Part shown: piece by piece, positions 11,035 through 46,267 of the stretch | Layout of the letters: each line of letters opens with the position of its first letter | How positions within the stretch are numbered: position 1 is the first letter of the stretch | Origin: Petrotoga mobilis SJ95 | GTDB taxonomy: Bacteria; Thermotogota; Thermotogae; Petrotogales; Petrotogaceae | DNA length: 64,000 bases | NCBI RefSeq assembly: GCF_000018605.1 | Contig: NC_010003.1 | Location: 534,501-598,500, forward strand | Reading direction: 5' to 3' | The notes under the pieces: model-generated | The model's database searches: none | What the model was told of the DNA's origin: nothing | The model's input: the letters and a program-made list of their open reading frames with translations, nothing else | Program-made: the position numbers and the translations under genes

Positions 11035-11826
11035 TTAATCGTTATTAAAAAAGGCTTCTACTAGTAGACAGAATTCTTCAAATTTTTCAAAAAACAGCGC
11101 ATGGCCCGTGTTTTCTAAGTTTGCTAGTAAAGAATTTTTTACTTTTTTACTCATTTCTATTATGTGGCTTTTGGGGGTTATAATATCTTCTTCTCCTGAA
11201 ATGAAAAGAGTTTTAGCTGTGATATTCGATATTTCATTTCTAATATCAAATGTTTCGTTAGACGAAGCGAGCCTTACAAAGCCGTCAAACCAGTCTTTAG
11301 TTAAGGTTTCTTTAAATACCTTCCTTCTATTCATCAACCATTCGTAGTTGTTGTTATAAAATGGTCGAGAATATATATAAGGGAGAGAAATATCAAAAAA
11401 CTTTTCACCATCGTAAAGTTCTGCCGCTACTTTCCATGCTTGACCTATGGACTTAAGATAGTTATCTATATGGTCGGTTGCATTTGAAAGAACCAGTTTG
11501 TCGATCATCTCAGGATACTTTAAAGCAAACAATTCTGCAATTTGTGCCCCGTAGGAAACCCCCATTAAATTTACCTTTTTTAATCCTAAATGATCAATCA
11601 ATTTCTTTAGATCTTCGACATGAACTTCTATAGTATAAGGTTTGTCGGTAATTCTTGAGGATTTTCCTTGATCTCGAGTATCGTACGTGATAACTTGGAA
11701 TTTTTTTTGCCACCTTTCTATATGTGCCATCCAACTTGAGGTACTCATCATAATCCCGTTTAATATAATTACCGGCTTTCCTTTTCCATAAATTTCATAA
11801 TAGATACCTGGATCCTCCAAATACAT
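11035..11826 (-). CDS. Alpha/beta hydrolase, last gene of the Liv array
   Basis: A 263-residue cytoplasmic alpha/beta-hydrolase-fold enzyme, likely an esterase, lactonase or thioesterase. The predicted triad is Ser91 in GVSYGA, Asp214 in SGEEDIITP and His242 in NTGHAL; the oxyanion segment is LNGIM. It begins 17 bp after the double-TetR gene and is the most distal gene of the long minus-strand array. It is one of three hydrolase domains there. The exact substrate is not recognisable. Confidence 0.9.
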   Translation of the reverse strand: MYLEDPGIYYEIYGKGKPVIILNGIMMSTSSWMAHIERWQKKFQVITYDTRDQGKSSRITDKPYTIEVHVEDLKKLIDHLGLKKVNLMGVSYGAQIAELFALKYPEMIDKLVLSNATDHIDNYLKSIGQAWKVAAELYDGEKFFDISLPYIYSRPFYNNNYEWLMNRRKVFKETLTKDWFDGFVRLASSNETFDIRNEISNITAKTLFISGEEDIITPKSHIIEMSKKVKNSLLANLENTGHALFFEKFEEFCLLVEAFFNND

Positions 11827-11843: not shown

Positions 11844-12977
11844 TTAGATACGTATTCCATGTGTAAGGTAAATTGATAATTCTTTTAAAACAGATTTTAT
11901 ATCTTTAATTCTTTTCAAAAAAATTCTATCTATACCTGTGTAATGGCTTACCCCCATTAGACTGTTAGCTATCAATTTTTTATCTTCTATTTTTGTTCGT
12001 TCAAGATTCTCAACATAACCCTTTTCAAATCTGTCATAATAATCATTTGCTGCCTTTTTTACAATAAATTCAGATTCTCTTACGATTTTATAGTATTCAG
12101 AATTACTTTCAAAATATTTTAGAAAGAGATAAATCCCTCTTAACTCGTTTTCTGCCCTATTTAATTGTTTTTTTTGATTGATAGTAAGGAATCTTCTTGT
12201 CATTTTACCAATTATTTTAACTATCTCCTCTAAAAAAGCTTCTTTACTTTCAAAATAAAGATAAAATGTCCCCACTGAATAACCTGCATTCCTTGTGATA
12301 TCGTGAACATCAGTTTTATAATATCCTTGCGTACCAAATAGTTCAATACCTGAAGATAATAATTTACTTCTGGCGGATTCGTCTTCGGGAATATCAGGGT
12401 AAATTACATCTTCTTCATCGAATATCAAAGAATAATTTTTTATTTCATCGTAAAAAATCCCATTGGTAATAATCTTCTTAATTTTGGTTTTGTCATAACT
12501 TAAACCATTAAAAATATACCTTATAATGACAAATCTTGCAATTCCTGAAATAAATAATTGTTCCGCCTGACTCGTTTCACGTAGTAAAACTAAAGAAACT
12601 CCCTTGCCGTATAAATCCCTCAAATGTTGCTCGTATTTTGGATATCGATATTGACCCTCTCTATAAATCAAAACATCTTTTTTGTAATCTCCGACTCCAG
12701 ATTTAACAACGGTGTCTAAAAACCGATCCATCCTGTCTTCAAAACTTTTACCAGAAATTGTAGAAAAGCCCTCTTCATAATAAATTACTATTTCGTTTAA
12801 CAATTTGAGAAATATGTCCTCTTTGTTCTTAAAATACCTGTAAAACACCCCGTTAGATAATCCGGCTCTTCTACAGATTTCGACAACGGAAACTGTTTCA
12901 TACCATTTTTCAGAAAAAAGATCCCTGGCTGCTGTCATTAATTTTTCATACGATTTATTTTTGACTTTATCCAACAT
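11844..12977 (-). CDS. Tandem TetR-type regulator with two DNA-binding domains
   Basis: A 377-residue protein made of two TetR-like units in one chain. The first helix-turn-helix region covers about residues 8-58 (VVEICRRAGLSNGVFYRYFK) and the second about 202-250 (VHDITRNAGYSVGTFYLYFE). Each is followed by a helical ligand-domain-like segment. TetR proteins normally have one such unit (about 200 residues) and dimerise, so this is an intramolecular pseudo-dimer. It starts 16 bp after the LivM-hydrolase fusion and is probably the local regulator of the array. TetR repressors of acyl-CoA metabolism (FadR of Bacillus and Thermus) bind acyl-CoA, so a CoA-ester ligand is an inference from context. 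Confidence 0.88.
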   Translation of the reverse strand: MLDKVKNKSYEKLMTAARDLFSEKWYETVSVVEICRRAGLSNGVFYRYFKNKEDIFLKLLNEIVIYYEEGFSTISGKSFEDRMDRFLDTVVKSGVGDYKKDVLIYREGQYRYPKYEQHLRDLYGKGVSLVLLRETSQAEQLFISGIARFVIIRYIFNGLSYDKTKIKKIITNGIFYDEIKNYSLIFDEEDVIYPDIPEDESARSKLLSSGIELFGTQGYYKTDVHDITRNAGYSVGTFYLYFESKEAFLEEIVKIIGKMTRRFLTINQKKQLNRAENELRGIYLFLKYFESNSEYYKIVRESEFIVKKAANDYYDRFEKGYVENLERTKIEDKKLIANSLMGVSHYTGIDRIFLKRIKDIKSVLKELSIYLTHGIRI

Positions 12978-12992: not shown

Positions 12993-14717
12993 TTAATTTT
13001 TCTCCAATGTAAAACTTTTAAAAATATCTATAAATGCTTTTGGTTCTTCTATTATAATCGAATGTCCAACATCAGGAATAATTTCTAATTTCCCATTTGT
13101 ACTTCGAACGACTTCATCAGCCATATTTTTAGTTATCAACGTATCTTTTTCCCCAAGAATGAATAATATTTCCCCAATATAATTTTTAGATATTTCTTCA
13201 TAGTTATAATTTTCCAAAGCCCTTGCATTTTCAGTAAAACATTTTGGGTTCATCAAAAGAGCATCGTTAGTTAGACAGTTTAGTAATTTTCTATCTCTTG
13301 ATGAAGGGACCATTGCCTTTAAAGAATTCTTTAGAAGTGTTCTATTGTTTTTTAACAAATTTAGAACATAATAATTTTCTTCTGGTGTCTTCAAACCCTT
13401 TAAAGAAGGGGAATCAACAAGTATTAATTTTTCTACTTTTTCTGGATATCTAAAAGCTATCGACATCGCTACAGCTCCACCCAAAGAATGCCCAACTAAA
13501 ACAACCTTATTCAACCCTAAAAGATCTATAAACTTTTTGGTATATTCTGCATAAGTATCTATTTGAATTTCTTTCATCCAATCAGAATAACCAAAATTTG
13601 GCAAATCAGGTGTATAGACCTTAAAACCTTCAATGTTTTTCACTTTCTCAAACCATCTGTGAGAGGCATAATTACCATGAATCATAACAACGGGTTTACC
13701 TTCACCACTTACTTCATAATATAATTTTACTCCATCAATGTTAATATAACTTCCCTCTTTTTTCTTATTCTTCCAAAATTTTTTTATAATCCATATAACA
13801 GGGATTTCAAAATATCTAAAATACAACATTTTCAACCCATAAGAAAGGCCACGAGGGAAGAATAAAACAAATATTATTAATAAACTCCCTACTATTATAG
13901 TCATAGGAAAATTGCTTCGTGAAAATAAAAAAGGCATTCCTGTAATTATAACAGAACCAATCAATCCTCCATTTAAAGAAGCAACTCCACCTACAATAAC
14001 CATTGCCAAAAGATTCAAAGAGACGTTCAAACCAAAATCTGCAGGAGATATATATCCTAGCGTATGCGCATATAAAAAACCTGCTATTCCGCTGTATATA
14101 GAACTGATAATAAAGGCTTGTAATTTTGCTTTAGCAATTTTCACCCCGAACGCTCTGGCAGCCAATTCACTGTCTCGCACCATATTGAATCTCTTCCCTG
14201 CAGGAGATTTTACAATTAAACTTGTTATATAGACCAAAAGACTATAAAAAAACAAATTCAACAAATAGGTATAAAAATCAGAATCAAAAAAAGCAGGGAT
14301 GTTCCTCATTCCGGTCCTTCCACCAAATACCTCCATTGAGGCAATTATCTCTTGTACCGCTATCCCAAATGCCATAGTTGCTATGGCTAAATAAAATCCT
14401 TTCAGTCTCATAGCTGGTAACGCTATTAACATACCAAACAAAGCAGAAAAAAGGATAACAAAAATTAAGTTTACAAATATTGGCATATTTAAACTCATTG
14501 TAAAAAAAGCACTTGTATACGCTCCAATGGCCATAAAAGCAGCATGGCCGATAGAGATCTGACCTGTGTACCCAAATATTACATTTAAACCTAAAGCTGC
14601 GATTGCAAAGATTATTATATTAGAAAATACTAACAACAAAAACGACTTGGAAATAAACAATAAACCCAGGAGAGAACCAATTATTAAGGTGTATAATGCT
14701 GTTTTCACTATTCTCAC
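12993..14717 (-). CDS. LivM-type ABC permease fused to an alpha/beta hydrolase
   Basis: Residues 1 to about 300 form a complete LivM-type inner membrane permease with about eight to ten hydrophobic segments, the GYTGQISIGHAAF motif and the usual end FVLFFPRG. A basic linker (about 311-321) follows, then a full alpha/beta hydrolase (about 322-574) with oxyanion segment MIHGNY and predicted triad Ser411 in GHSLGG, Asp525 in LGEKDTLI and His552 in VGHSII. LivM alone is about 300 residues. The fused enzyme should face the cytoplasm if topology follows LivM. The GTG start overlaps the livH stop by 4 bp. The fusion suggests the substrate is hydrolysed as it enters. Confidence 0.9.
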   Translation of the reverse strand: MRIVKTALYTLIIGSLLGLLFISKSFLLLVFSNIIIFAIAALGLNVIFGYTGQISIGHAAFMAIGAYTSAFFTMSLNMPIFVNLIFVILFSALFGMLIALPAMRLKGFYLAIATMAFGIAVQEIIASMEVFGGRTGMRNIPAFFDSDFYTYLLNLFFYSLLVYITSLIVKSPAGKRFNMVRDSELAARAFGVKIAKAKLQAFIISSIYSGIAGFLYAHTLGYISPADFGLNVSLNLLAMVIVGGVASLNGGLIGSVIITGMPFLFSRSNFPMTIIVGSLLIIFVLFFPRGLSYGLKMLYFRYFEIPVIWIIKKFWKNKKKEGSYINIDGVKLYYEVSGEGKPVVMIHGNYASHRWFEKVKNIEGFKVYTPDLPNFGYSDWMKEIQIDTYAEYTKKFIDLLGLNKVVLVGHSLGGAVAMSIAFRYPEKVEKLILVDSPSLKGLKTPEENYYVLNLLKNNRTLLKNSLKAMVPSSRDRKLLNCLTNDALLMNPKCFTENARALENYNYEEISKNYIGEILFILGEKDTLITKNMADEVVRSTNGKLEIIPDVGHSIIIEEPKAFIDIFKSFTLEKN

Positions 14718-15595
14718 ACTCTCCCTTCAAAATCTTTCCCAAATAACCCAGAAGGTTTAAATAACAAAACTAATATTATCAATACAAGAATAATAGATAA
14801 TTGATAATCTGGAGATATATAAACCCCAACTAATTTTTCTAAAACACCTAAAATTAGCCCACCTATAATAACACCAAAAAGGTTCGAAAAACCACCGAGA
14901 ACACCTGCTGTTATACCATACAATTGCATATTTATCAACATGCTGGGATGTATGTAAGTTTTTGGCGCTGCAATAATTCCAACTAAACTTACAGTAGCTA
15001 TTCCAATACTCCAAACAATTGCATCCACACGGTTAATATCTATTCCACATACAAGTGAACCTATCTCCTCTTGAGACCGAGCTCTAATAGCTATACCTAA
15101 CTTGGTATACTTTAAAAACATTGCTAAAAGTAGCATTACAGCAATGGAAATTATAGTAATCACAACATCGTTTGAAGGCATAACTAGCACCCCATTTTCC
15201 AAAAATAAGATAAAAGGCTTTCCTGAAAACAATTCTGGATAAGAAAAGTAATCAGTTCCCCAAACCAACACAACCAAACCTTCAATTACCATCAACAAGC
15301 CTAATGTAACCATAAGCATCGCACCATGGGATAAATGTTTCAAAGGTCTCATTAAAAACCGCTCAACAACCATACCAATAAGGAATCCTGAAAAAACTGC
15401 TGAAATTAAAGATAAAATAATATTACCACTTACCAAATAAACAGTAAGTCCAATATAACTTCCTAACATTCCCGAATTTCCATGAGCAAAGTTTAGAACC
15501 CCTGTGGTCCTAAAAATCAAAGCTATTCCAAATGCGGTGAGCCCGTATAATGCTCCTTGTGGAATCCCCGAAATTATGCTTTGGAGTATTTGCAA
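14714..15595 (-). CDS. Branched-chain amino acid-type ABC permease LivH (system 2)
   Basis: A 293-residue membrane permease, the LivH half of the second Liv-type importer. It begins with the typical SGIPQGALYGLTAFGIALIF segment and contains LNFAHGNSGMLG, with about eight membrane spans. It lies 16 bp after the LivF gene and overlaps the LivM-hydrolase fusion by 4 bp, so the two permease subunits are translationally coupled. Confidence 0.94.
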   Translation of the reverse strand: MQILQSIISGIPQGALYGLTAFGIALIFRTTGVLNFAHGNSGMLGSYIGLTVYLVSGNIILSLISAVFSGFLIGMVVERFLMRPLKHLSHGAMLMVTLGLLMVIEGLVVLVWGTDYFSYPELFSGKPFILFLENGVLVMPSNDVVITIISIAVMLLLAMFLKYTKLGIAIRARSQEEIGSLVCGIDINRVDAIVWSIGIATVSLVGIIAAPKTYIHPSMLINMQLYGITAGVLGGFSNLFGVIIGGLILGVLEKLVGVYISPDYQLSIILVLIILVLLFKPSGLFGKDFEGRV

Positions 15596-15611: not shown

Positions 15612-16310
15612 TTATTTCCCCAAATATGACTTTTTTAATCTCTCATCATTCAACATTTCCTTGGATACTCCTTGATGTGCAACGTTACCATTTTCTAATA
15701 TATAAGTTCTATCACTTATTTTTAGTGATTTTATCGCGTTTTGTTCCACGAGCAAAATTGGAATATTAGATTCTTTTAAAGTTTTTAATACACTGTATAT
15801 TTCATCAATAATTATTGGTGCCAATCCCAAGGAAGGCTCATCTAACATCAACAACTTTGGAGAAGCCATAAGCGCCCTGCCTAACGCCAACATCTGTTGT
15901 TCTCCTCCAGATAACGAACCTGCTTTCTGCTTCCTTCTCTCTTTTAAAACAGGGAAAAGATCGTAAACATATCCAGAATTTTTTGAATAATCTCCCCTTA
16001 AGTACGTTCCCATTTTCAAATTTTCTTCGACTGTTAAACTTGAAAAGATTCTTCTATTTTCAGGACATAACACAATCCCTTTTTTTACCATATAAACAGT
16101 ACTTTTATTACTTACATCTTCACCTTCAAAAATTACTTTACCTTTAGATTTAACTATATTCAAAACTCCAAAAAGTGTTGAAGTTTTACCAGCTCCATTG
16201 GAGCCCAAAATGGTAACAATTTCACCCTTATTCACAGAAAAAGAAATTTTTTTTACCGCCTTTACATGACCATAATTAACTTCCAAATTTTCAACTTCAA
16301 GCATTTTCAT
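15612..16310 (-). CDS. ABC ATPase LivF (system 2)
   Basis: A 232-residue ATPase of the LivF type. Walker A GSNGAGKT is at 36-43, signature LSGGE at 133-137, and Walker B with catalytic Glu LMLDEPS at about 154-160. It overlaps the livG end by 14 bp. The first ATG (16310) directly abuts the GGGGGAAG ribosome binding site, so the second ATG (16304) may be the real start. Confidence 0.95.
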   Translation of the reverse strand: MKMLEVENLEVNYGHVKAVKKISFSVNKGEIVTILGSNGAGKTSTLFGVLNIVKSKGKVIFEGEDVSNKSTVYMVKKGIVLCPENRRIFSSLTVEENLKMGTYLRGDYSKNSGYVYDLFPVLKERRKQKAGSLSGGEQQMLALGRALMASPKLLMLDEPSLGLAPIIIDEIYSVLKTLKESNIPILLVEQNAIKSLKISDRTYILENGNVAHQGVSKEMLNDERLKKSYLGK

Positions 16311-17052
16311 CTTCCCCCAAGTACACTTTTACAACTTCTTCGTTATTTGATACTTCTTCGGGAGTTCCTTCGGCAATTTTCTTCCCAAAGTTCATAACGG
16401 TTACTAAATCAGAAACAGTCATTACAACATTCATATCATGCTCCACCAACAATATCGTCTTTCCTCTTTTATTGACCATTTGTATAATGTTTTTTATCTC
16501 CTCTGTTTCATAATAATTTAAACCCGCTGCAGGTTCATCCAATAAGAGAAGATCTGGATCAGAAATAACTGCTCTAGCCATTTCAACCCTTTTTAGCATC
16601 CCATAACTGAGTCCAGAAGGATAAGAAGTGAGCCTATTTTTTATGTCAAACATCTCAGCCACTTCTAAAACCTTATCTCTTGCTTCTCTATCAAAATTCG
16701 ATTTTGATTTTGAAACCACAGAGAAAATGGAGTCATTATATTTGTGTATTAATCCACTATAGATGTTTTCAAAAACGTTCATGGCCTGAAAAAGTTGTAA
16801 ATTTTGAAAAGTTCTCGATATGCCTTTATATATTATGTCGTGGGTATCTAATTTTAAAAGAGATTCACCTTTGAATAAAATATCCCCCTGTTGGGGATTA
16901 ACTATCCTGGTAATTGTATTGAACAAAGTTGTCTTCCCAGCTCCATTAGGACCGATAAGAGCATGAATCTTTCCTTGCACTAATTTCATAGAAAAATCGT
17001 TAACAGCCTTTAAACCGCCAAATGCTACGGTAACGTTTTTGACTTCAAGCAT
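16297..17052 (-). CDS. ABC ATPase LivG (system 2)
   Basis: A 251-residue ATPase of the LivG type. Walker A GPNGAGKT is at 34-41, the signature is LSYGMLKR at about 148-155 (LivG proteins often have LxYGxxR here), and Walker B is LLLLDEPAAG at about 168-177. It follows the substrate-binding gene after a strong intercistronic hairpin and pairs with the adjacent LivF. Confidence 0.95.
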   Translation of the reverse strand: MLEVKNVTVAFGGLKAVNDFSMKLVQGKIHALIGPNGAGKTTLFNTITRIVNPQQGDILFKGESLLKLDTHDIIYKGISRTFQNLQLFQAMNVFENIYSGLIHKYNDSIFSVVSKSKSNFDREARDKVLEVAEMFDIKNRLTSYPSGLSYGMLKRVEMARAVISDPDLLLLDEPAAGLNYYETEEIKNIIQMVNKRGKTILLVEHDMNVVMTVSDLVTVMNFGKKIAEGTPEEVSNNEEVVKVYLGEDENA

Positions 17053-17114: not shown

Positions 17115-18326
17115 TTATAAAACTTCTAACAACGATTCAACAGAATAATGTATCCAACTTGAAGCAAAGTCCCAAACTAATCCTTGATCGGTTAAAACAG
17201 ATTTTAGAACATACATAGAAGTCATTCCCATTCGAGAATCAAAGCCTGAGGACACCGGCTTATAGCTCAAACCATGATTTTCATCACCAAGTGTAATGTA
17301 ATTGCCCTTCCAATTGTCTAAAGTCTCCAAAGCTGAAACTAAACTTTCTCTAGTCAAATCAGGACCTGCCCTTTTAACCCCTTCGACAAAAACTTCTGCC
17401 GCTATCATACCAGCGATAGCATAAGCATTAGGAATACCTTCATAATATTCTTGCCATATTTTTATCGCGGGTTCTTCGGGGTTTGTAAAATCCACGGCAA
17501 CCCAAGCCATTACCTCAACACCGTCTCCTGCTTCTTGAGCTAATTGTAGATAACTCACATCTGCGTTTGAATAGGTCAGAAGATACCTTTGATCGGTCAT
17601 TCCAAATTGTTTGGCTTGGCGAACAAATCCAACTGATTGGGGAAGGAACAACATAACAGCTACGGCATCAGGTTTAACTGATAACAAACGTGTTACTTCA
17701 GATGTGAAGTCACTTTTAAAAGGATCCACTGCTATGTTTGCAACGGGCTCCATCCCCAAAGCTTTTAATGTACCTACCGCTGAATTACTGAACTCTTGAC
17801 CATCTTCTGCATTCCTATAAACGATTGCTATTCTTTCATGGCCCTTTTCTACCAAATAATTCATTACTATGTTCGCTTCTACTATGTAATTCGGTTGAAC
17901 CGGGAAAATATACTCTCTGGGTGGAAGACTGAACTCTATCGAACCCCCACCTTGATAAACAAAGGGAACACCGTTGTCATTCAGATAATCTTGTACAGCT
18001 AAAATACCTGGAGTTCCTAGTCCTCCAACGATGGAAAAAACTCCATCTTGCTCAACCATCCTTCTAACTTCTACAACCGTTTTAGCAGGATTGAACTGAT
18101 CATCAGCTACTATTAACTCAATCTGTCTTCCGTAGATACCACCGTTGTCGTTGATGTAATTAAAATAAGCTTGCATACCCTGCGCCATTGGTCTTCCTAT
18201 AGGTGCAACAGGTCCCGACATGGCTTGAAAAGTACCTACTAAGATCTTATCATCAGTTACCCCTACTTCCGAAAAGCCTGAAACTAGCAACAAAACCACA
18301 AAAACCATACCAATAAATCTTTTCAC
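17115..18326 (-). CDS. Liv-type ABC substrate-binding protein (system 2)
   Basis: A 403-residue extracytoplasmic binding protein of the LivJ/LivK family (periplasmic-binding fold type I). The signal peptide is KRFIGMVFVVLLLVSGFS, and the mature domain begins DDKILVGTFQAMSGPVAPIG. The start is GTG 18326, placed correctly after GAGAGGTGAG; longer readings to 18371 have no ribosome binding site. Family members bind branched-chain amino acids, amides, urea, aromatic acids or short carboxylates, so ligand is open. Confidence 0.92.
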   Translation of the reverse strand: MKRFIGMVFVVLLLVSGFSEVGVTDDKILVGTFQAMSGPVAPIGRPMAQGMQAYFNYINDNGGIYGRQIELIVADDQFNPAKTVVEVRRMVEQDGVFSIVGGLGTPGILAVQDYLNDNGVPFVYQGGGSIEFSLPPREYIFPVQPNYIVEANIVMNYLVEKGHERIAIVYRNAEDGQEFSNSAVGTLKALGMEPVANIAVDPFKSDFTSEVTRLLSVKPDAVAVMLFLPQSVGFVRQAKQFGMTDQRYLLTYSNADVSYLQLAQEAGDGVEVMAWVAVDFTNPEEPAIKIWQEYYEGIPNAYAIAGMIAAEVFVEGVKRAGPDLTRESLVSALETLDNWKGNYITLGDENHGLSYKPVSSGFDSRMGMTSMYVLKSVLTDQGLVWDFASSWIHYSVESLLEVL

Positions 18327-18379
18327 CTTTCTCACCTCTCTTAATAAAGTTAAATTTCCTGAAAAGTACACTTTCTTAG

Positions 18380-18524: not shown

Positions 18525-20525
18525 TTATATCTTAAAACTTCCAACTAATCCTTTTAACTCTGTGGCTAATTCACTCAACTCTTTCGCTTCTTCGTTTATC
18601 CCTATCCCTTGTTTTACTTGTTCGTCTATTACACTTCTTGACCTTTCTAGTTGTTCACTTATCTCTGTCACCGCTTTCGCTACCCTGTCCATCGCTGTGC
18701 TCATCTCTTGTGCACTCGCACTTTGTTCCTCTGCACTTGCCGTCATGTTTTCTATCCCTTGGTCCATCCTTTCTATCCTTTCTTTTATACGATTGAAACT
18801 TTTCTGTACATTCTCCATCTTTTCGTTTATTTCTCCTATCGTTCCTACTACCTTGTTCGTCGATTCGTTTACTTTGTTCGTTCCTTGCGTTATGTTGGTT
18901 AGTATTTCGGATATTTCATCCGTTGCATTCCTTGATTCTTCCGCTAACTTCCTTATCTCATCCGCTACAACTGCAAATCCTCTTCCCGCTTCCCCTGCCC
19001 TTGCCGCTTCTATCGCTGCGTTTAGTGCCAACAGGTTCGTTTGTTCCGTTATCGAGTTTATCGTTTCTACTATACTTTGTACGTTCTTGGCGTTGCTTGC
19101 GAGTGTTTCTACTTCTTTTTGACTTTCTTTTGTCCTTTCTACCGCTTCTTTCACAGCTTGACTTATGCTTTCTATCGTTTTGCTTCCTTCTTCTGCAGCT
19201 TTACTTGTTTCATCTGCTTCTTCACTTAGTCTTTGTGCGTCTTGGGATACACCTTGTGCTGCCCTTGCTACTTCGTCTACACCTGAGGTCACTTCTTCTA
19301 CGTTTCCTGCCGTTTCTTCCGTACTTGTTTGTATCTTGTCCATCTGGTTTTTGAGTTCTTCTGAGTTCTTCCTGCTTTCTTGTGATGAGCGCGTTAGACT
19401 TTCTGATGCGTTTTCTACTTTGTCCGATGCCTGTTTTATTGACCCCATGGATCTTCTTAATTCTTTACTCATTTCTGATAGGGCGTTTGCCATCTGACCT
19501 ATCTCGTCTTTGCTTTTACTTTCAAAGTTTACCGTTAGGTCTCCTTCTTTGAATTGGTTTATCTTGTTTTTGAAGTCTAACAGTGGTTTCGTTATACTCC
19601 TTATTAGATAGATGACCATGATTATCGATACTATGAAGGCTACTACGGTTAAGATGGCTGTCAAGGTTATTGCTTGATTGTTTTCTTCTATGAGTGATGG
19701 ACCTAACGTGTCTTGTTGGACCTTTAATTTATTTCTTTGTTCTTCTAATAGGTTTATTAACTCTACCCTTGCTTGTTCCATCTGCCCGATTATGGGCTGT
19801 TGGGATTCTATCGCTGTGACTATTTGATCAAAGGTGCTTTTGAATGAAGCAACTATATCGGTCAGTTTTGAAAAAGCATCATTTAATTCCTGATTAATTA
19901 TGCTATATCCTAAAGTAGAAAGTTGCAAGTCTAAATTTTCGAACTCTTTAATTACGTTGTTCTTATCTCCATCCGATAAACTTGAGAAATATTGTGTAGA
20001 CAAATCAATAATTGTGTTTTTGTACTGCAAAATTCTTTGTGAATATATAGGCAAAGAGGAAGAACCACCAACTTTTTGTGATAATTCTATAAAACCATTC
20101 ATATTATTCTCTAATTCAGATCCCAGATTTAAAAATTCATCTATAAGGGCATCTTTTTCTTGGTTTAAAGTAACTAATTTATTGAAAAGGGATTCGTAAT
20201 TAGTCAAATTTGATTGTAATTCTTCTAAGTTATAAGTTGAAAGATTAGATAAATCGTCTTTGACACTATCTATATAGCTAAAAAAATCACTGGCTTTTTG
20301 TTCTTCAAAACTATCGGTGTAATCTTTTAAGCTAATTGTAGCTTGAAAAAAGTTGAATTCAGCTTGAGAGAAAGAATTAACGTGATCGGCCATAAGTTTA
20401 TATTCTTCTAAAGCGTTGTTTGAATTGATTAAAGAATATATATTGTATGAAATAGATAAACTAAACAAAAGAAAAGTAGTTATTATGATCAACGTTATTT
20501 TGCTTCCAATACTTTTAAAAGACAT
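18525..20525 (-). CDS. Methyl-accepting chemotaxis protein (copy 2) inside the Liv array
   Basis: A 666-residue chemoreceptor: TM1 at about 9-28, helical ligand domain to about 286, TM2 at about 287-308, HAMP, and a signalling domain with the [16 protein letters not shown] tip. Residues from about 230 to the end differ from the MCP at 3693-5705 at only a handful of positions, whereas residues 1-229 are clearly divergent. It lies 36 bp after livF of system 1 and upstream of the system 2 binding protein, on the same strand. This suggests it senses the substrate (or a binding protein) of these importers. Confidence 0.94.
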
Positions 20526-20560: not shown

Positions 20561-21268
20561 TTACACCCCAAGATAAGATTTTTGAATGTGTGGACTGTTA
20601 GCAAGATTCTGGACAACATCTTCCATAACAATCTTCCCATTTTCTAGCACGTAACCTCTATCAATAACTTTTAGCCCTTGTTTTACGTTCTGTTCTGCCA
20701 ACATTATCGATACCCCAGATTTCTTAATCTCTACTAATTTTTGAAACAATTCTATTACAAGTGAAGGTTGTAATCCCAACGAAGGCTCATCAAGTATTAG
20801 CAATTTTGGATTTGCCATTAATGCTCTTCCGATAGCCAACATTCTTTGTTGACCGCCACTCATAGTCCCAGCTAATTGATGAATCCTTTCTTTTAATATT
20901 GGAAAAATTTCAAAAACAAAATCCAAATTTTCACTTATTCTATTCCTCGCATTTGGCACATAGGCTGCTCCCAATTTTAAATTTTCTTCAACGGTCATAA
21001 AAGGGAATAATTCTCTTTCCTGGGGAACCAAAGAAATCCCTTTTCTTATTATTTCATGAGTTTTAAATCCAATTAATGAATTCCCCTCAAAAATGAGTTC
21101 TCCTGTTTCTGGTTTTATTAAACCAACGATCGAACTGATTAAGGTAGTTTTACCAGCTCCATTGGGTCCAAATATGCCTACAGCTTCATTGTTATAAATT
21201 GACATAGTTAAGTCCCAGATTACTTGTATTCTTCCATATTTTAAATTCAAATTTTTGATTTCAAGCAT
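20561..21268 (-). CDS. ABC ATPase LivF (system 1)
   Basis: A 235-residue LivF-type ATPase. Walker A GPNGAGKT is at 34-41, signature MSGGQQR at about 136-142, and Walker B LLILDEPS at about 156-163. Its ATG overlaps the livG stop by one base (TGATG), so translation is coupled. It energises the first Liv-type importer of the array. Confidence 0.95.
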   Translation of the reverse strand: MLEIKNLNLKYGRIQVIWDLTMSIYNNEAVGIFGPNGAGKTTLISSIVGLIKPETGELIFEGNSLIGFKTHEIIRKGISLVPQERELFPFMTVEENLKLGAAYVPNARNRISENLDFVFEIFPILKERIHQLAGTMSGGQQRMLAIGRALMANPKLLILDEPSLGLQPSLVIELFQKLVEIKKSGVSIMLAEQNVKQGLKVIDRGYVLENGKIVMEDVVQNLANSPHIQKSYLGV

Positions 21269-21984
21269 CAGTCTTCCTCCCCTAAGTAGGCAGATATAAC
21301 TTTAGGATCTTTTGAAACTTCCTGATAAACCCCTTGTGCTATAATTTTCCCAGATTCCAAAACTATTACTCTATCTGTTAACTCTTTTATTACACCCATT
21401 ACATGTTCTATTATGGCTATCGTTATTCCATTTTCTCTAAGCTTTTTTACCAAGTCTATCATTTGCCATGTTTCATCGGAGTTTAACCCAGCCATTACTT
21501 CATCCAAAAATAAAACTTTTGGTTTGGAGGCTAAAGCCCGTCCTATTTCCACTTTTTTTAAGTCAAGAACAGTTAATTTATCTATAGGTTGGTTCCTATT
21601 TTCCAATTCCAAAAGATCGCATATTTCATTTGCCGTTTTCCTCGCTTGTATTAAATTCTCTCCAGCTCCAAACAAGGCACCAACCATAATATTTTCTAAG
21701 CCAGTAAACCCTTGCAATGGCCTTACAACTTGAAAGGTTCGAGAGAGTCCTATTCTGTTTCGAATATGTGGTGGATATTTTTCAATGTTCTGATTATCAA
21801 ATATTATTTCACCTTCAGTGGGATAATGCATGCCAGCTATTAAATTAACAAAAGTGGTTTTCCCAGCACCATTCGGTCCAATAATACCTAAAATTTCTTT
21901 TTCTTCTATGCTCATTGTGACATCATTTACAGCTACTAATCCTCCAAATTTTTTTACTAAATTTCTTGTCGATACTATTTGCAT
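21268..21984 (-). CDS. ABC ATPase LivG (system 1), atypical signature
   Basis: A 238-residue LivG-type ATPase. Walker A GPNGAGKT is at 36-43 and Walker B VLFLDEVMAGLN at about 157-168. The signature region reads LTVLDLKKVEIGRALA (about 137-152), so the usual SGGQ-like core is absent. In a heterodimeric ATPase this would leave one composite site weak. The pairing LivF keeps a normal signature. Confidence 0.93.
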   Translation of the reverse strand: MQIVSTRNLVKKFGGLVAVNDVTMSIEEKEILGIIGPNGAGKTTFVNLIAGMHYPTEGEIIFDNQNIEKYPPHIRNRIGLSRTFQVVRPLQGFTGLENIMVGALFGAGENLIQARKTANEICDLLELENRNQPIDKLTVLDLKKVEIGRALASKPKVLFLDEVMAGLNSDETWQMIDLVKKLRENGITIAIIEHVMGVIKELTDRVIVLESGKIIAQGVYQEVSKDPKVISAYLGEED

Positions 21985-22018
21985 AAAGTTCCCCTCCGTA
22001 GTATATATTCAAAATTAA

Positions 22019-22942
22019 CTACTTACCAGATTGTATTTTGTTTTTTAAAGATCCAAATATTCCTTTTGGCAAGAACAGTATTATGAGAATTATGATTATT
22101 CCATAAATTATGAGATGACCATAGGGCATAATTAATTTTAAATATTCAGACGCAAATCCTAAAACAATTGCTCCAATAATTGGACCCCAGGTAGAATATA
22201 TTCCTCCTACAAGCGCCATGGCCATAGGTAGTAAGAGAAAATCTAAAGAAAAGGTTGTTTCAGGAGAGACGAAACCGTATTGTTGAGAGTACACAGCCCC
22301 AGTTATCCCTTGAATAGCTGCTGTTATAATAAAGATAATTATCAGATATTTAAAAATATTGATACCAGTAGATTTAGCCACAACTTCATCTGTCCTTATT
22401 GAGTTGATAGCAAAATGAACCCTCGTTCGACTGAATATTTCAGAAACTAAAATTGTCGATAGAGCTAAAGTCAATATTAACCAATATATTTTTGATGAAT
22501 CTCCTTGAAATATTATATTAGGTATAACCTTCCCACTTGCTCCACCGGTTAAACGTGGAGTATTCCTGATAATAACCGAAAAAACCGTTGTCAAGGCTAA
22601 GGTGGTGATTGCAAAATAAATTCCTCTCAATTTAAGAACCACAAATCCTAATGCCAAAGCTATCAGCGCCATAAAACCCCCGGCAAGAAATATGCTAACT
22701 AAAGGGTTAATTCCAAAATTTGCAAAGGAAACTATCGATATATAAGCACCTACCCCGAAAAAACCTGCTACTCCAAAGGATAATTGACCCGTTCTCAACA
22801 TCATATCCCAGCTCAAAGATAACGTCATATAAATTAAAATAGTCATAACGACATGAAGAAAATACGCTCCCGTATAAAAAGGCAAAAATATTAATAATCC
22901 TATTGCTATAACCAATATTAAAGGAGTTAAGATTTTTTTCAT
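22019..22942 (-). CDS. ABC permease LivM (system 1)
   Basis: A 307-residue LivM-type permease with roughly ten hydrophobic segments, the motif MMLRTGQLSFGVAGFFGVGA and the standard C-terminal IILFLPKGIFG. Unlike its counterpart in system 2 it ends there, without a fused hydrolase. It overlaps the livH stop by 4 bp. Confidence 0.94.
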   Translation of the reverse strand: MKKILTPLILVIAIGLLIFLPFYTGAYFLHVVMTILIYMTLSLSWDMMLRTGQLSFGVAGFFGVGAYISIVSFANFGINPLVSIFLAGGFMALIALALGFVVLKLRGIYFAITTLALTTVFSVIIRNTPRLTGGASGKVIPNIIFQGDSSKIYWLILTLALSTILVSEIFSRTRVHFAINSIRTDEVVAKSTGINIFKYLIIIFIITAAIQGITGAVYSQQYGFVSPETTFSLDFLLLPMAMALVGGIYSTWGPIIGAIVLGFASEYLKLIMPYGHLIIYGIIIILIILFLPKGIFGSLKNKIQSGK

Positions 22943-23868
22943 GACTCTGACCCCCTGTATGCTCTAATTAATATTACTATAATTAACACTCCAAAAAAAA
23001 CTAAATCAGACCAACCACTGTATCCAGGAATTGATTGAACAACTGCTTCAACTACTCCTAAAGTGATTCCACCAATTAAAATACCGTTTAAATTGCCCAA
23101 TCCTGCCATAGCTGCTAAAGCAAAGGACTTTAAAGTATATGCATTTCCTGACAAGGGGAATATGGATGTCCTTGGCAACATTATACCCGCAGCAATACCT
23201 ATAATTCCAAAAGCAATAGCAAAAACGATAAGATATACTTTGTTGGTATCTATACCTACAATTTCAGCTCCTTTTGGGTTTTGCCCAACTGCTCTTGTTG
23301 CTTGCCCTAAAAGTGTCTTTTTCAAAAAAAGTTGAAGAAAGATTAATACTCCAATTGCCACTATTGGGTATAGAAATTCATAAATACCAATAGAGAAATT
23401 TGATATTGTTATGGATGAAGAAGCATAAGGAGTATAAATATTTCTGGGACGGGTAGTCCAAATTATTTTTATAAGCTCTATAACTACCATAGAAATCCCA
23501 AACGTTAACAACAGTTGGTTCAGTTCCCCTGCTTTTAACACGTATCTTATTGAAATCTGATAAATCCCTATTGCTAATAAAAACATTAAAATAAATAATG
23601 GAAACACTGAAATAAGTGGGTCTAACCCTAATTGAGTGAAAAAAATATACCCTATGTATAAACCTAAAGTCAAAAAATCCCCATGAGCTAAGTTTAATAT
23701 TCCAACGATTCCTAATATCAAAGCCAAAGGTAAACCAATTAAAGAATATAAACCACCGCGTTGAAGACCATAGATCAAAGGTATGGGTTTCCAAATAGCA
23801 ATAATTACAAGGAAAACAAGAAACATTAAAAATGTTTTATTAAGTCGAAAATGCAGAGAATTCAACAT
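22939..23868 (-). CDS. ABC permease LivH (system 1)
   Basis: A 309-residue LivH-type permease with the motif LALILGIVGILNLAHGDFLT and about eight spans. The ATG at 23868 follows GGTGGTGATT; an upstream frame to 23913 runs through the intercistronic hairpin and is not coding. It overlaps livM by 4 bp. Confidence 0.92.
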   Translation of the reverse strand: MLNSLHFRLNKTFLMFLVFLVIIAIWKPIPLIYGLQRGGLYSLIGLPLALILGIVGILNLAHGDFLTLGLYIGYIFFTQLGLDPLISVFPLFILMFLLAIGIYQISIRYVLKAGELNQLLLTFGISMVVIELIKIIWTTRPRNIYTPYASSSITISNFSIGIYEFLYPIVAIGVLIFLQLFLKKTLLGQATRAVGQNPKGAEIVGIDTNKVYLIVFAIAFGIIGIAAGIMLPRTSIFPLSGNAYTLKSFALAAMAGLGNLNGILIGGITLGVVEAVVQSIPGYSGWSDLVFFGVLIIVILIRAYRGSES

Positions 23869-23893
23869 AATCACCACCGTTTTTTTAATGAAA

Positions 23894-23918
23894 GGGGGAG
23901 GAATATCTTCCAACCCCC
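23894..23918 (-). promoter_or_regulatory. Intercistronic hairpin after substrate-binding gene 1
   Basis: GGGGG and GGAA pair with TTCC and CCCCC around a 4-nt loop, giving a bulged 9-bp GC-rich stem. It lies between the stop of the system 1 binding protein and livH. No T tail follows on the minus strand, so mRNA stabilisation or partial termination is likely. Confidence 0.65.
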
Positions 23919-23940
23919 ATATTTCAAAAATTTACTTTTA

Positions 23941-25170
23941 CTATTTACCAAATGTGAAAGGATAAGCCATCGTTGCCGTTGCAAGATCTATAGGCCAAAT
24001 AACTTCTTGTCTACCATTTTGCCATTGTAAAATTTTTTGATACTTGAATCCTTGATTTGGTATTATTCTGCTTGGTTCAATTTTCAACACTTCACCCAAC
24101 GGCGATTCATATTCAATAGTTCTCAATGCAGAAATTATAGCTTCTTTATCCATGGTTCCTGCTTTTTTTATACCTTCAACCAAAAAATAAATATTAGTAT
24201 ATCCAAGGGGAGCAAAGTATGTTACCGGTTCTTCATCCCACATTTCAACGTAAGCATCATAAAAATGTTTAGCTACTGGACTTACATCATTTAAAGTTGG
24301 AGCCCACATCCCATAAAGAATAACATTCTCTGCTAAAGGATTTTTCCCAAAGTCCGCTGGCCAACCTGGAGGAGCTCCTACTAACAAGTCAGGTGTGAAA
24401 TCCACTTCTTTTGCCTGGGCTACAATTGGTATAGCATCAGCGTCGTATCCCGCCCAAACAAAAAGGTCCGGATCAAAAGCCTTTGCTTGATTTAACATAG
24501 CTCTATAATCTCCCCCTCCTAGGGCGGCACTCTTGAATGAAGCTCCAGCAAATTCTTCCATTATTCCTTGCCATGGACCTTCTCCTTTTTTTGCTAACTC
24601 ATAAAGATCTAAATAAGCTGTATATGAGTCCGTGCCGAAGGCTCCTTCTTCATACGCCAAAAAGATTTTTTTAATATCAACATTTGGATATGCCTGAACT
24701 ATTTCTCTCCAACCTATCCCATAACCTTCGCCTTGTTGATAATCCCATGGGTGAAGATGGAAGTACCAGTCTGCATCTGGACCCATCGCTATTTCAATTT
24801 GATGGGAAGCTCCACCTGCCCAAACAGTTATTTTTTGGTATTTTTTAAGAATAGGCACTTGTGCTAAATGTACACCACTAGACATTCCACCAACAAAAAA
24901 ATCTACTTTTTCAACGGTTGCTAATCTCTCGATCGCTGCAGCCCCTTTTGCTGGATTCATTTCATCATCTATAACTATAAGTTCCAGCGGTCTTCCCAAA
25001 ACCCCACCGGCGTCGTTAATCTCTTTAACTGCTAACCTCATCGCCTTTGTACTTTGGTTGCCAGTTATATCTCCTAAAGGATTTACAGCGCCGATTTTAA
25101 TAGGATCTACTGCCATCGCCAAAGAAAACATGACAACCAAAAAAAGAACCAATCCTATGTTTCTTTTCAC
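23941..25170 (-). CDS. Liv-type ABC substrate-binding protein (system 1)
   Basis: A 409-residue LivJ/LivK-family binding protein. The signal peptide is KRNIGLVLFLVVMFSLAMA, and the mature part starts VDPIKIGAVNPLGDITG. The GTG start at 25170 follows GGAGGTGAG at the same spacing as in the system 2 protein. It begins 5 bp after the thiolase stop, tying the importer to the CoA enzymes. It differs clearly from the system 2 binding protein, so the two importers probably have different ligands. Confidence 0.92.
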   Translation of the reverse strand: MKRNIGLVLFLVVMFSLAMAVDPIKIGAVNPLGDITGNQSTKAMRLAVKEINDAGGVLGRPLELIVIDDEMNPAKGAAAIERLATVEKVDFFVGGMSSGVHLAQVPILKKYQKITVWAGGASHQIEIAMGPDADWYFHLHPWDYQQGEGYGIGWREIVQAYPNVDIKKIFLAYEEGAFGTDSYTAYLDLYELAKKGEGPWQGIMEEFAGASFKSAALGGGDYRAMLNQAKAFDPDLFVWAGYDADAIPIVAQAKEVDFTPDLLVGAPPGWPADFGKNPLAENVILYGMWAPTLNDVSPVAKHFYDAYVEMWDEEPVTYFAPLGYTNIYFLVEGIKKAGTMDKEAIISALRTIEYESPLGEVLKIEPSRIIPNQGFKYQKILQWQNGRQEVIWPIDLATATMAYPFTFGK

Positions 25171-25175
25171 CTTTC

Positions 25176-26387
25176 TCACCTCCATATATTTTTTACCACT
25201 AAAGCCGTCCCCATTCCTCCACCAATGCAAAGTGATGCCAGACCAAATTCGCTATTTCTCTTTTTCATCTCGTAAAGAAGTGTAACAACTATCCTATTTC
25301 CCGATGCTCCAATAGGATGTCCTAAAGCAATTGCACCACCATTCACATTGGTTCTTTCAAGAAACCAGTTTTTAGATTTCCCATAAATATCTCCTAATTC
25401 TGTTATCACCCCCAAAGACTGGGCAGCAAAAGCTTCGTTTAGTTCAATTAATTCCATATCTGTTATATCCATTTTGATCTTTTCTAAAAGGCCCTTTACA
25501 GCGGGAACTGGACCTAAACCCATGTATGCTGGGTCTACAGCGGCCTGATTGTAACCAACTAATTCTGCTATTGGTTTTAATCCGTATTTTTCAACAGCCC
25601 TTTCTGAGGCTAATAAGACAGCACTGGCACCGTCGTTTATTCCCGAAGCGTTTCCAGCTGTTACGGTTCCCTCTTTTACAAATGCAGGTTTAAGACTGGC
25701 TAACTTTTCTTTCGTTGTATCAAATCTTGTATGTTCGTCTTGGTCAAAAAGAACTGTTTCTTTTTTTCTTTTTACTTCGATTGGTATTATTTCATCTTTA
25801 AATTTCCCTGATTCTATGGCTCCTTTAGCTCTCATTTGACTCGTATATGCAAAATCGTCTTGCTCTTCACGAGAAATATTGTGTTTTTTTGCGATGTTTT
25901 CTGCAGTTACCCCCATATGATAGTTATTAAAAACATCGGTGAGCCCGTCTAGTATCATATGATCTTGAACTTCAAATGATCCAAATTTGTTTCCAAATCT
26001 ACTTGTGGATGGCAAAAGATAAGGAGCTGTTGACATACTCTCCATTCCTGCCGCCACAACTAGGTCGGCGTCACCTGTTTTAATATCCGTAGCACCGATC
26101 ATTATACTTTTCATGCCGCTTCCACATAACATATTAACAGCGTAGCCAGGCTTGTCTTCTGGAATCCCTGCATATATGGAGACTTGTCTTCCTGGGCCCA
26201 TGCCTTGGCCTGCCATCAAAACATTTCCAACAATGACTTCATCAACATTTTCAGAATTTACTTGAGCTTCTTGTAGCACTTTTTTCACAACTTCAGCTCC
26301 CAATTTGGTTGCAGGTATATCTTTTAGGGTTCCACCAAAAGTACCGATGGCCGTCCTTTTTGCGGATATTATATAAACTTTACTCAT
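25176..26387 (-). CDS. Acetyl-CoA acetyltransferase (thiolase)
   Basis: Thiolase that cleaves acetoacetyl-CoA to two acetyl-CoA or runs the reverse condensation. The 403-residue protein has the acyl-carrying Cys88 in NMLCGSGMKS, the His-containing GGAIALGHPIGASG and the second catalytic Cys in LCIGGGMGTA. The start is ATG 26387 after GGGAGGT. It stands 5 bp upstream of the binding protein of importer 1 and 91 bp after the CoA-transferase. Confidence 0.95.
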   Translation of the reverse strand: MSKVYIISAKRTAIGTFGGTLKDIPATKLGAEVVKKVLQEAQVNSENVDEVIVGNVLMAGQGMGPGRQVSIYAGIPEDKPGYAVNMLCGSGMKSIMIGATDIKTGDADLVVAAGMESMSTAPYLLPSTSRFGNKFGSFEVQDHMILDGLTDVFNNYHMGVTAENIAKKHNISREEQDDFAYTSQMRAKGAIESGKFKDEIIPIEVKRKKETVLFDQDEHTRFDTTKEKLASLKPAFVKEGTVTAGNASGINDGASAVLLASERAVEKYGLKPIAELVGYNQAAVDPAYMGLGPVPAVKGLLEKIKMDITDMELIELNEAFAAQSLGVITELGDIYGKSKNWFLERTNVNGGAIALGHPIGASGNRIVVTLLYEMKKRNSEFGLASLCIGGGMGTALVVKNIWR

Positions 26388-26478
26388 TGTTTCTACCTCC
26401 CATATAGTCTTATCACTGTTTAGGTCCAACACCTTGCAGCAGCCTGTTTAGATTAAATGTGGTCCACAAGTCAAAGCT

Positions 26479-27795
26479 CTATATTAACCCCATCTTTATA
26501 GCTTCTTGTTCTAATTCTTTTCTAAAGTCTGGATGAGATATCGAAATCAATTTCTTAGCCCTTTCACCTGCGCTTCTACCTCTTAAGTGAGCTACTCCCC
26601 ATTCTGTTACGACATAATCTAAATCCTGCCTTGGAACAGTAATTGGAGCTCCTTGTGGAAGTAGGGGGACTATCGTTGAAATGGTGCCTTTTTTTGCTGT
26701 GGATCGTAGGGCTATTATACCTTTCCCATTTTTACTTTTTATAGCCCCTCGATGTGTGTCCAATTGGCCTCCTGTTCCAGAAAACTGTTTGGTCCCTATT
26801 GCTTCTGAAACAACCTGACCGGTCAAATCTACTGAAATTGCTGTGTTTAAACTTACCATATTGTCATTTTGACAGACTACGTAAGGATCATTGACAAATC
26901 TCCCTCTGAGCTCAAGAATACCAGGATTATCGTCGATAAATTCATACATTCTCTTTGTCCCTAAGGCAAAAGCTATTACAAATTTCCCCTTCCAAAGGGT
27001 CTTCTTCATATTTGTTATTACACCTTTTTCAAAAAGATCTATCATTGATTCTGTAAGCATTTCAGTGTGAATTCCTAAATCTTTTTTTGTCTCAAGCAAT
27101 TTTGCTACCGCGTTAGGTATTCCACCGATACCTATCTGCAAGGTTGAGCCGTCTTTTATGATATCTGCTATGTACTGAGCAATCTTTTTTTCTTCTTCTT
27201 TAGGTTCTGAAATAGCAATTTCAGGAATTTCCCAATTAGACTCAACAACAACATTTACATTGTTTATATGCCATTCGGTATCCCCATGAACATATGGCAT
27301 TTTTTCATTGACCTCCATTATTACTATATCCGCGTTTTCTGCTAAATCTTTTTCATACACATTAGAGATACCTAAATTAAAGTATCCAGTTTTTTCTCTC
27401 ATAGGAGTGGAAGTTCCCCAAAACACCAAGGTATTTCCTTCTTCTTTTTCAGCCATAACCTTGTCTAAACCAGCCATATGAAGATTATTTGGTATATAAT
27501 CCAATATTTTTAATTTATCTTCATGTTTAGATTTTCTCGTAGGATCAGAATAGAACCATGTATGTAATTCGAAAGTTCCTTCATATTCTTTGTTCAAAAA
27601 GAACTCATAATATCCCGTATCTAAACAAGTTATCACTTTTATTTTTTCAAAATGATCTTTAAATTTATGAATACTTTTCAAAAAACCTTGGGCTTCAGCT
27701 GCAGCCATACTCACAACCACCGAAACTCTTTTCGGTAGGTTTAATATTGCATCGTCAATTGACATTAATTTTTGTTTATATTTTTCTTTCCACAT
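26479..27795 (-). CDS. Acetyl-CoA hydrolase/transferase family CoA-transferase
   Basis: A 438-residue class I CoA-transferase of the 4-hydroxybutyrate or butyryl-CoA:acetate CoA-transferase type. The predicted catalytic Glu245 lies in GIHTEMLTE, and the QFSGTGGQLD and GAPITVPRQD motifs are present. It would activate an imported or hydrolysed carboxylic acid using acetyl-CoA or another CoA donor. It lies between the SDR and the thiolase genes. Distinguishing donor and acceptor needs biochemistry. Confidence 0.92.
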   Translation of the reverse strand: MWKEKYKQKLMSIDDAILNLPKRVSVVVSMAAAEAQGFLKSIHKFKDHFEKIKVITCLDTGYYEFFLNKEYEGTFELHTWFYSDPTRKSKHEDKLKILDYIPNNLHMAGLDKVMAEKEEGNTLVFWGTSTPMREKTGYFNLGISNVYEKDLAENADIVIMEVNEKMPYVHGDTEWHINNVNVVVESNWEIPEIAISEPKEEEKKIAQYIADIIKDGSTLQIGIGGIPNAVAKLLETKKDLGIHTEMLTESMIDLFEKGVITNMKKTLWKGKFVIAFALGTKRMYEFIDDNPGILELRGRFVNDPYVVCQNDNMVSLNTAISVDLTGQVVSEAIGTKQFSGTGGQLDTHRGAIKSKNGKGIIALRSTAKKGTISTIVPLLPQGAPITVPRQDLDYVVTEWGVAHLRGRSAGERAKKLISISHPDFRKELEQEAIKMGLI

Positions 27796-27890: not shown

Positions 27891-28634
27891 TTAAAGAACT
27901 GTTCCCCCGTTTACATCCAAAATGTGACCAGTTACATAAGAAGCCTCTTCAGAAGCTAAAAATAATACTGCATTCGCCACTTCTTCTGGTTCTCCCATTC
28001 TCCCTAAAGTTATTTTTGATTTTATGCTTTCTAATACCTTCTCTGGAATTTTTTCTGTCATTGGAGTTTTAATGAATCCAGGAGCAACCGCGTTAACTCT
28101 AATATTTGCCCCTTTCCTTGCAAATTCCTTAGCCCAAGTATATGTCATTGATATAACTCCACCTTTTGAAGCTGCATAGTTAGTTTGACCAACATTCCCT
28201 CTTTCACCCACGATTGAAGATATATTCACTATACTTCCTTTTCCATTTTCTAACATAAGATTTGAAACAAATTGTGTCATATTGAATACACCTTTCAAAT
28301 TTACTCCAATGACCTTATCCCAATCTTCTTCTTGCATCTTACCTATCAAAGCGTCCTTCGTTATACCAGCATTGTTAACAAGTACATCGATTCTTCCAAA
28401 CTCTTCTTTTACTTTTCTCACAAATTCTTCTATAGCAGGCCTATCGGTTACATCCAACAGATAACCTCTCACATTTTCTCCTAATTGATTCTGTAACTGA
28501 GAAAGAATTTCTTGGTTCATGTCTAAAGCAAAAACAATCTTTGCTCCTTCTTCGGCAAACTTCTTAACGATACTTTCCCCTATGCCTCTGCCTCCACCTG
28601 TAACTACACAAACTTTGTCTTTCATTCTATCCAT
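27891..28634 (-). CDS. SDR family oxidoreductase, FabG or 3-hydroxyacid dehydrogenase type
   Basis: A 247-residue classical short-chain dehydrogenase. The cofactor motif TGGGRGIG is at about 12-19, NNAG at about 87-90, and the catalytic Ser and YxxxK lie in NISSIVG and TNYAASKGG. The family covers 3-oxoacyl-ACP reductase, acetoacetyl-CoA reductase and 3-hydroxybutyrate dehydrogenase. Next to a CoA-transferase and thiolase, a catabolic 3-hydroxyacid dehydrogenase role is more likely than fatty-acid synthesis. The start follows GAGGTG; the ATG three codons in (28625) is possible. Confidence 0.92.
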   Translation of the reverse strand: MDRMKDKVCVVTGGGRGIGESIVKKFAEEGAKIVFALDMNQEILSQLQNQLGENVRGYLLDVTDRPAIEEFVRKVKEEFGRIDVLVNNAGITKDALIGKMQEEDWDKVIGVNLKGVFNMTQFVSNLMLENGKGSIVNISSIVGERGNVGQTNYAASKGGVISMTYTWAKEFARKGANIRVNAVAPGFIKTPMTEKIPEKVLESIKSKITLGRMGEPEEVANAVLFLASEEASYVTGHILDVNGGTVL

Positions 28635-28668: not shown

Positions 28669-29670
28669 TTAACCCCACTTTACGGTGGTTGCAGCCCAAA
28701 CAAAACCTATACCTGCTCCCACCATAACAACGACGTCTCCAGGGTTGAGTTTTCCTTCCTTTAGAGCCAACTTCATAGAAAGCACCTGATCGTTTTGTCC
28801 AAGATGACCGTAATTTTCCAGATAAGTTGTTTGTTCTTCCTTCAAGCCTAATTCTTCCAAAACAGCCTTATGAGCAGATCTCTTAAAGTGAAGAATGGCT
28901 AAGTATCCGATATCTTTTTCACTATAACCGGATTTTTTTAAAGAATCTCTGATTACTCCATAAAAGTTAGGCATGGTTTTTTCACTCAAATTTGCTTTAA
29001 ATTTTTCGAACTCTCTTACAGTAAAGTAAAACTTATTTGCGTCTTCTGGCTTCATGGGCCATTTTTTGGTTCCTCCTACTTCTATTACACATTGCTCTGA
29101 AAAAGAGCCATCTCCCCTAAAAGCGGATGATAAAATCAAATTCTTGTTTAAATTCTTTCTTAATATCAAAGCTGCCCCTCCAGCCCCAATATCGAACATA
29201 AAAGAGGTTTCTGGAACTTCATAATTGATGAGATCACCATTTCTGTAACCACTTACAAGTAATACCGTGTTCAAATTATCATTATTCATCATAAGGGATT
29301 TTGCTGTCTCCATTCCTACCATCATCGATCCACACATTGCCTCCATATCAAAACCCCATGCACGAGTGGCTCCAATCTCATGAGCAACTTTTAAGCTGGC
29401 AAGCCAGCATGGATAATCTTTGTGTTGGCCACCATTCCATATGACTAAATCTATATCTTTTGGATCTATACCTGCGTCTTTGATAGCTTCCTTAGCCGCT
29501 TGAATACCCATATAACTCGTTGTATCCTCAGGACCAGGGATGGGTTTTTTTAAAATACCAAATTTTTCTTCTATCACCCATTGCGGAATATTCGTTCTCT
29601 TGGCTATCTCTTCAGCATAAATGTAATTATCAGGTATGTAAACCCCTAAACCCATTATTCCTACATTCAT
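28669..29670 (-). CDS. KAS III-like thiolase-fold enzyme with altered triad
   Basis: A 333-residue protein of the FabH/HMG-CoA synthase-like thiolase superfamily. The nucleophile Cys113 lies in MEAMCGSMM and His261 in AILHFKR. Where FabH has the third catalytic residue Asn in a YGNTSA motif, this protein has YGHLGQND, placing His289 there. It is therefore unlikely to be the housekeeping FabH. It may condense or cleave an acyl-CoA. The start is ATG 29670 after AAGGAGG; the frame above it has no ribosome binding site. It stands 34 bp upstream of the SDR gene. Confidence 0.86.
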   Translation of the reverse strand: MNVGIMGLGVYIPDNYIYAEEIAKRTNIPQWVIEEKFGILKKPIPGPEDTTSYMGIQAAKEAIKDAGIDPKDIDLVIWNGGQHKDYPCWLASLKVAHEIGATRAWGFDMEAMCGSMMVGMETAKSLMMNNDNLNTVLLVSGYRNGDLINYEVPETSFMFDIGAGGAALILRKNLNKNLILSSAFRGDGSFSEQCVIEVGGTKKWPMKPEDANKFYFTVREFEKFKANLSEKTMPNFYGVIRDSLKKSGYSEKDIGYLAILHFKRSAHKAVLEELGLKEEQTTYLENYGHLGQNDQVLSMKLALKEGKLNPGDVVVMVGAGIGFVWAATTVKWG

Positions 29671-29816
29671 TCCATTTCCTCCTTTAAAATCTAACATTCA
29701 GTACCTTTAGAAACTCCAAACTTTCTTTAACTCTCTGTTACTTTTTTTAAGATCAAAATATTATTTGCCAAATTATTTTATTTACAAGTCTCAAAATATA
29801 ACATATGAATCAGTTC

Positions 29817-43213: not shown

Positions 43214-43326
43214 AGGGGGCGATACCTACTCTCACACGACATAGCGTACTACCATCGGCACGATACGGCTTAACCGTCAGGTTCGGTATGGTTCTGGGTG
43301 TTTCCCGTATCGTTATCTTCACCCCC
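43214..43326 (-). rRNA. rrf: 5S ribosomal RNA
   Basis: About 113 nt. The 5' GGGGGTGA pairs with 3' TCGCCCCC as helix I, and the typical internal block GGGAAACACCC..CCATACCGAACC is present. It follows the 23S gene by about 35 nt as the last gene of the operon. Ends are estimated from pairing. Confidence 0.9.
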
Positions 43327-43331
43327 TATTA

Positions 43332-43361
43332 CTCATTCACAAGTGCATAGAGTTTCGTCCA

Positions 43362-43364
<3 letters not shown>
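43332..43364 (-). other. 23S processing stem, 3' side
   Basis: This segment pairs with 46268-46299: ACAAGTGCATAGAGT and its complement, plus CTTTGGAC/GTCCAAAG and CTCATT blocks on either side. It forms the long helix at the base of precursor 23S rRNA, the expected RNase III substrate. Confidence 0.75.

Positions 43365-46267
<2,903 letters not shown>

Follow-up and report, generated by a model that had tools for sequence, protein, structure and literature searches.

The window, i.e. the whole stretch of 64,000 nucleotides analysed here, contains a gene in which a LivM permease and a complete alpha/beta hydrolase are joined in one open reading frame (livM1-abh1). With a probability of about 0.5, this gene belongs to a Liv importer taking up short 3-hydroxyacid oligo-esters or similar esters, which would be cut on arrival by the tethered PhaZ-like esterase. 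The single reading frame, the conservation of the fusion, the invariant catalytic triad, the fold and the operon context were obtained from sequence or computation; we infer the substrate, and also that the tethering may speed or rectify uptake. The positions of the genes concerned are listed in Table 1.

Table 1. Genes of the importer locus and its surroundings in the window.
Feature	Position	Strand	Remarks
ABH2, separate alpha/beta hydrolase	11035..11826	-	nearest NCBIfam model PcaD, below cut-off
Tandem double TetR regulator	11844..12977	-	377 aa, two TetR DNA-binding domains; 15 bases after fusion
livM1-abh1 fusion gene	12993..14717	-	574 aa; LivM permease 1-~290, linker 290-316, PhaZ-like alpha/beta hydrolase 323-572
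livH1 permease	14714..15595	-	stop overlaps start of fusion gene by 4 bases
livF1 ATPase	15612..16310	-	from sequence; conserved order
livG1 ATPase	16297..17052	-	from sequence
SBP1 binding protein	17115..18371	-	LivJ Thr102, Glu226 equivalents are Gly, Tyr
Methyl-accepting chemotaxis-type protein	18525..20525	-	between the two importers
Second Liv importer: livF2, livG2, livM2 (unfused), livH2, SBP2	20561..25230	-	
Acetyl-CoA acetyltransferase (thiolase)	25176..26432	-	
CoA-transferase, butyryl/4-hydroxybutyrate CoA-transferase type	26479..27795	-	
SDR, acetoacetyl-CoA / 3-oxoacyl reductase type	27891..28634	-	
KASIII-like enzyme	28669..29697	-	NCBIfam PRK06840
ABH3, orthologue of Bacillus intracellular PHB depolymerase PhaZ	29817..30710	-	NF050089 449 bits, above cut-off of 300

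The fusion gene starts with GTG and lies on the minus strand, which refines the earlier reading. Its permease half, of LivM type with 10 helices, matches PF02653 (BPD_transp_2) at residues 30-263 with an E-value of 1.9e-36 and 126 bits compared to a cut-off of 26.8, and the hydrolase half matches Abhydrolase_1 at residues 341-559 (E 6.1e-27), likewise above the cut-off. The hydrolase comprises the alpha/beta fold, a Ser-acid-His triad (Ser411, Asp525, His552) and a GxSxG-type elbow, and the AF2 model reached a pLDDT of 90.8 and a pTM of 0.77. Thus, the original prediction of a LivM permease ending near residue 290 and followed by a complete hydrolase with this triad is borne out. The linker between both parts is basic, as had been described, and additionally forms a helix in the predicted structure. 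Neither LivM2 (22019-22942), which belongs to the companion importer, nor a third LivM of the same genome carries a hydrolase, so that the fusion is specific to one importer, as originally stated.

A stop between the domains, named by the original prediction as the finding that would speak against it, does not occur in the frame. That a sequencing or assembly error merged two genes is extremely improbable: apart from the occurrence of two separate genes in some relatives no support for it was found, and the same join in about 51 independent genomes already refutes it. Moreover, the codon differences between relatives over residues 290-345 amount to 52, 26 and 102 at positions 1, 2 and 3. Since the substitutions across the linker follow this coding pattern, the join is translated and is not an assembly artefact. 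An internal start yielding a separate hydrolase within the window fusion was considered and rejected, as no Shine-Dalgarno-led start was seen near the junction.

By sequence profile and fold, the fused hydrolase most resembles PhaZ, the intracellular PHB depolymerase of Bacillus. When a profile built from 45 domain sequences was compared with the PDB, PhaZ of B. thuringiensis came first with 154 bits and the next family reached 112, and the single-sequence and NCBIfam rankings also placed PhaZ first for the window protein. Against NF050089 (intracellular scl-PHA depolymerase) the fused domain scored 110-114 bits, compared to a curated cut-off of 300; for this reason it is termed PhaZ-like and not PhaZ, and its specificity may differ. 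The top structural match of the AF2 model was PhaZ as well (Z 33.5, rmsd 1.8, 254 aligned), followed within 1 Z by an aryl esterase (Z 32.6); several esterases tie in this comparison, so that the structural ranking alone amounts to a tie.

The genes SBP, livG, livF, livH and the fusion gene stand in this order in one run, so that the fusion is accompanied by the set expected for a LivM. The binding proteins, in turn, differ from those for amino acids. In LivJ, Thr102 and Glu226 hold the alpha-ammonium group of the amino acid. These residues are replaced by Gly and Tyr in all 43 SBP1 sequences and by Ala and Pro in all 14 SBP2 sequences, so that neither protein carries the alpha-ammonium ligands of a branched-chain amino acid importer; both retain Ser/Thr at position 79. 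It is therefore very unlikely that this is an ordinary importer of branched-chain amino acids whose hydrolase tail is incidental: the Liv family name and fold agree with it, but the binding proteins lack the ammonium-binding residues, the operon is not related to amino acids and the hydrolase triad is invariant. The chemoreceptor-type gene between the two importers suggests chemotaxis towards their substrate.

In the AF2 model, six membrane helices precede the coupling helices (172-189) and four follow them, which, given the topology usual for such permeases, places the C-terminus inside. Natural LivM-ATPase fusions occur in Sinorhizobium (e.g. Sinorhizobium meliloti WP_088195341), and since they need a cytosolic LivM C-terminus, they point to the same side. 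In addition, the split relatives of family f5 start directly at the hydrolase without a signal sequence. A secreted hydrolase was considered for Mesotoga-like genomes, in which the longest open reading frames of the locus open with signal-like sequences. It was rejected: in at least three of the five loci an internal ATG has a purine-rich ribosome-binding site in front of it, and the additional sequence shows no coding pattern; the signal-like part is thus read as an upstream extension of the frame and the protein as cytosolic. Altogether, there is strong reason to infer that the fused hydrolase is cytosolic.

Upstream of the fusion, on the same strand, ABH3 and the genes for the KASIII-like enzyme, the SDR, the CoA-transferase and the thiolase form a 3-hydroxyacid-type catabolic cluster. 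In 42 of 53 loci, at least one of thiolase, CoA-transferase, SDR and KASIII-like enzyme is encoded on the same strand at a distance of at most 12 kb. In some of the remaining ones these genes are found further along or the locus is cut by contig ends, and in family f9 the neighbourhood often lacks the KASIII-like gene and the thiolase. Counted by genome, hydrolase and KASIII-like gene occur together in 51 cases, the hydrolase only in 15, the KASIII-like gene only in 4 and neither in 33 (Fisher p 3e-11, shared ancestry not being corrected for). The KASIII-like enzyme appears to have kept its Cys and His motifs with a changed Asn region, and among 14 control genomes an enzyme of the PRK06840 type was present only in Thermus composti. 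The PhaZ orthologue of the ABH3 type is limited to part of one family, which, like the f9 loci, speaks against the uptake of 3-hydroxyacid oligo-esters. Most other loci have a TetR-type relative close to the fusion.

No PHA synthase was detected in 103 Thermotogota genomes with the two models tried. This makes PHB granules an unlikely internal substrate, and a PhaZ-type enzyme in this phylum needs an imported one. Since a search with one model for a secreted PHB depolymerase found none in the genome of the window, the oligomers would have to come from other organisms.

Elsewhere in the window, a single frame of 502 aa (31112-32620, plus strand) joins a NanE epimerase with a ROK kinase, and the lack of long open reading frames at 43214-48012 (minus strand) is explained by a complete rRNA operon (16S, tRNA, 23S, 5S).

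Of 103 Thermotogota genomes, about 51 from eight families have a single frame spanning both domains (counted from the match table, two of them cut by contig ends). The residues Ser411, Asp525 and His552 as well as the HGN motif (347-349) are the same in all 43 distinct fusion proteins; the first Gly of the GHSLG elbow is Ala in 12 of them. In the tree of the hydrolase domain, the sequences group largely by family, as vertical descent would predict, with some weak deep nodes. Separate genes occur in one genus of family f5, which groups with a fused relative at a support of 0.998. They also occur in family f2, in Mesotoga-like genomes that are nested among fused relatives (support 0.976) and have the hydrolase gene placed after the second importer instead. 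Both cases are best read as fissions, and the fusion seems to be ancestral and to have been split at least twice afterwards. In a genome of family f3 (L079, 8568-10773), the fusion appears frame-disrupted within the hydrolase domain.

The search for the domain architecture, as proposed originally, thus revealed a widespread fusion within Thermotogota, and none of the plasmids searched outside this phylum carried both domains in one frame. Accordingly, among the Thermotogota genomes and outside plasmids searched, the carriers belong to one phylum and not to many unrelated genomes. A collection-wide genome scan with a single protein as query returned one relative. On two Deinococcus plasmids, the nearest relative (34% identity) stands unfused next to a Liv importer, and one of these clusters also contains an annotated 3-hydroxybutyrate dehydrogenase. 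A literature search of incomplete coverage yielded no description of a LivM-hydrolase fusion.

Concerning the substrate, the same architecture on the same side of the membrane could also serve a lactone, an acetoacetate ester or another short-chain ester feeding the same CoA pathway. The score of the fused domain below the PhaZ cut-off, the nearly equal scores of aryl esterase and enol-lactonase folds and the likeness of the adjoining ABH2 to the enol-lactonase PcaD agree with such a substrate. It is nonetheless rather unlikely, as PhaZ scores 42 bits above the next family in the sequence profile and the same cluster encodes a true PhaZ orthologue. Even less probable is that LivM is a mere membrane anchor, with the hydrolase acting, independently of transport, on an ester near the membrane or on a general ester of the cytosol. 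The separate genes in several genomes speak for this, since they indicate that the fusion is not obligatory; however, even the split hydrolase remains within an importer operon, and the fusion has been retained in eight families. Of the original suggestion that hydrolysis of an ester or lactone is coupled to entry, the ester chemistry is supported by the PhaZ-like domain and the catabolic cluster; the coupling and the exact substrate are putative.

For the favoured import of 3-hydroxyacid oligo-esters, the route may be as follows: SBP1 would deliver a carboxylate ester without alpha-amino group, most likely a short 3-hydroxybutyrate oligomer or a related 3-hydroxyacid ester, which LivH1/LivM1 would carry inward together with the ATPases LivF1/LivG1. 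At the inner mouth, the tethered hydrolase would cleave the ester bonds, and the freed hydroxyacids could be activated by the CoA-transferase, oxidised by the SDR and thiolysed by the thiolase, yielding acetyl-CoA. Uptake of the monomer may be the task of the second importer. Only tentatively can it be proposed that cleavage at the channel exit pulls uptake (vectorial hydrolysis), and that this is an undescribed scavenging pathway for PHB-type oligomers ancestral to Thermotogota.

Primary ABC importers are thought to move their substrates unchanged. A permease keeping its own hydrolase across a phylum is thus a natural test case for the coupling of chemistry and import. The predicted scavenging of hydroxyacid oligo-esters by thermophilic anaerobes without PHA synthesis bears on PHB turnover, and the system offers thermostable hydrolases and binding proteins.

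Compared to LivFGHM with LivJ/LivK of E. coli (Liv/HAAT-type), the importer comprises the same gene set of SBP, LivG, LivF, LivH and LivM with the LivM fold and motifs, whereas LivM1 bears a C-terminal hydrolase and the SBPs of the window lack the alpha-ammonium ligands. The LivM-LivG fusions of Sinorhizobium ('ATP-binding protein/permease') likewise attach a cytosolic partner to the LivM C-terminus, but this partner is an ATPase and not a metabolic enzyme. With Bacillus PhaZ (NF050089; PDB 8ynv) the fused domain shares the closest profile, top structural matches, the HGN motif and the Ser-Asp-His triad; it differs by an identity of only about 26%, a length shorter by about 30-40 residues and the tether to a permease. 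The standalone homologues of Mesotoga-like genomes and Deinococcus plasmids belong to the same hydrolase family and adjoin Liv importer genes, but they are unfused, and the importer next to them belongs to the SBP2/LivH2 type in the Mesotoga-like genomes and on one of the two plasmids.
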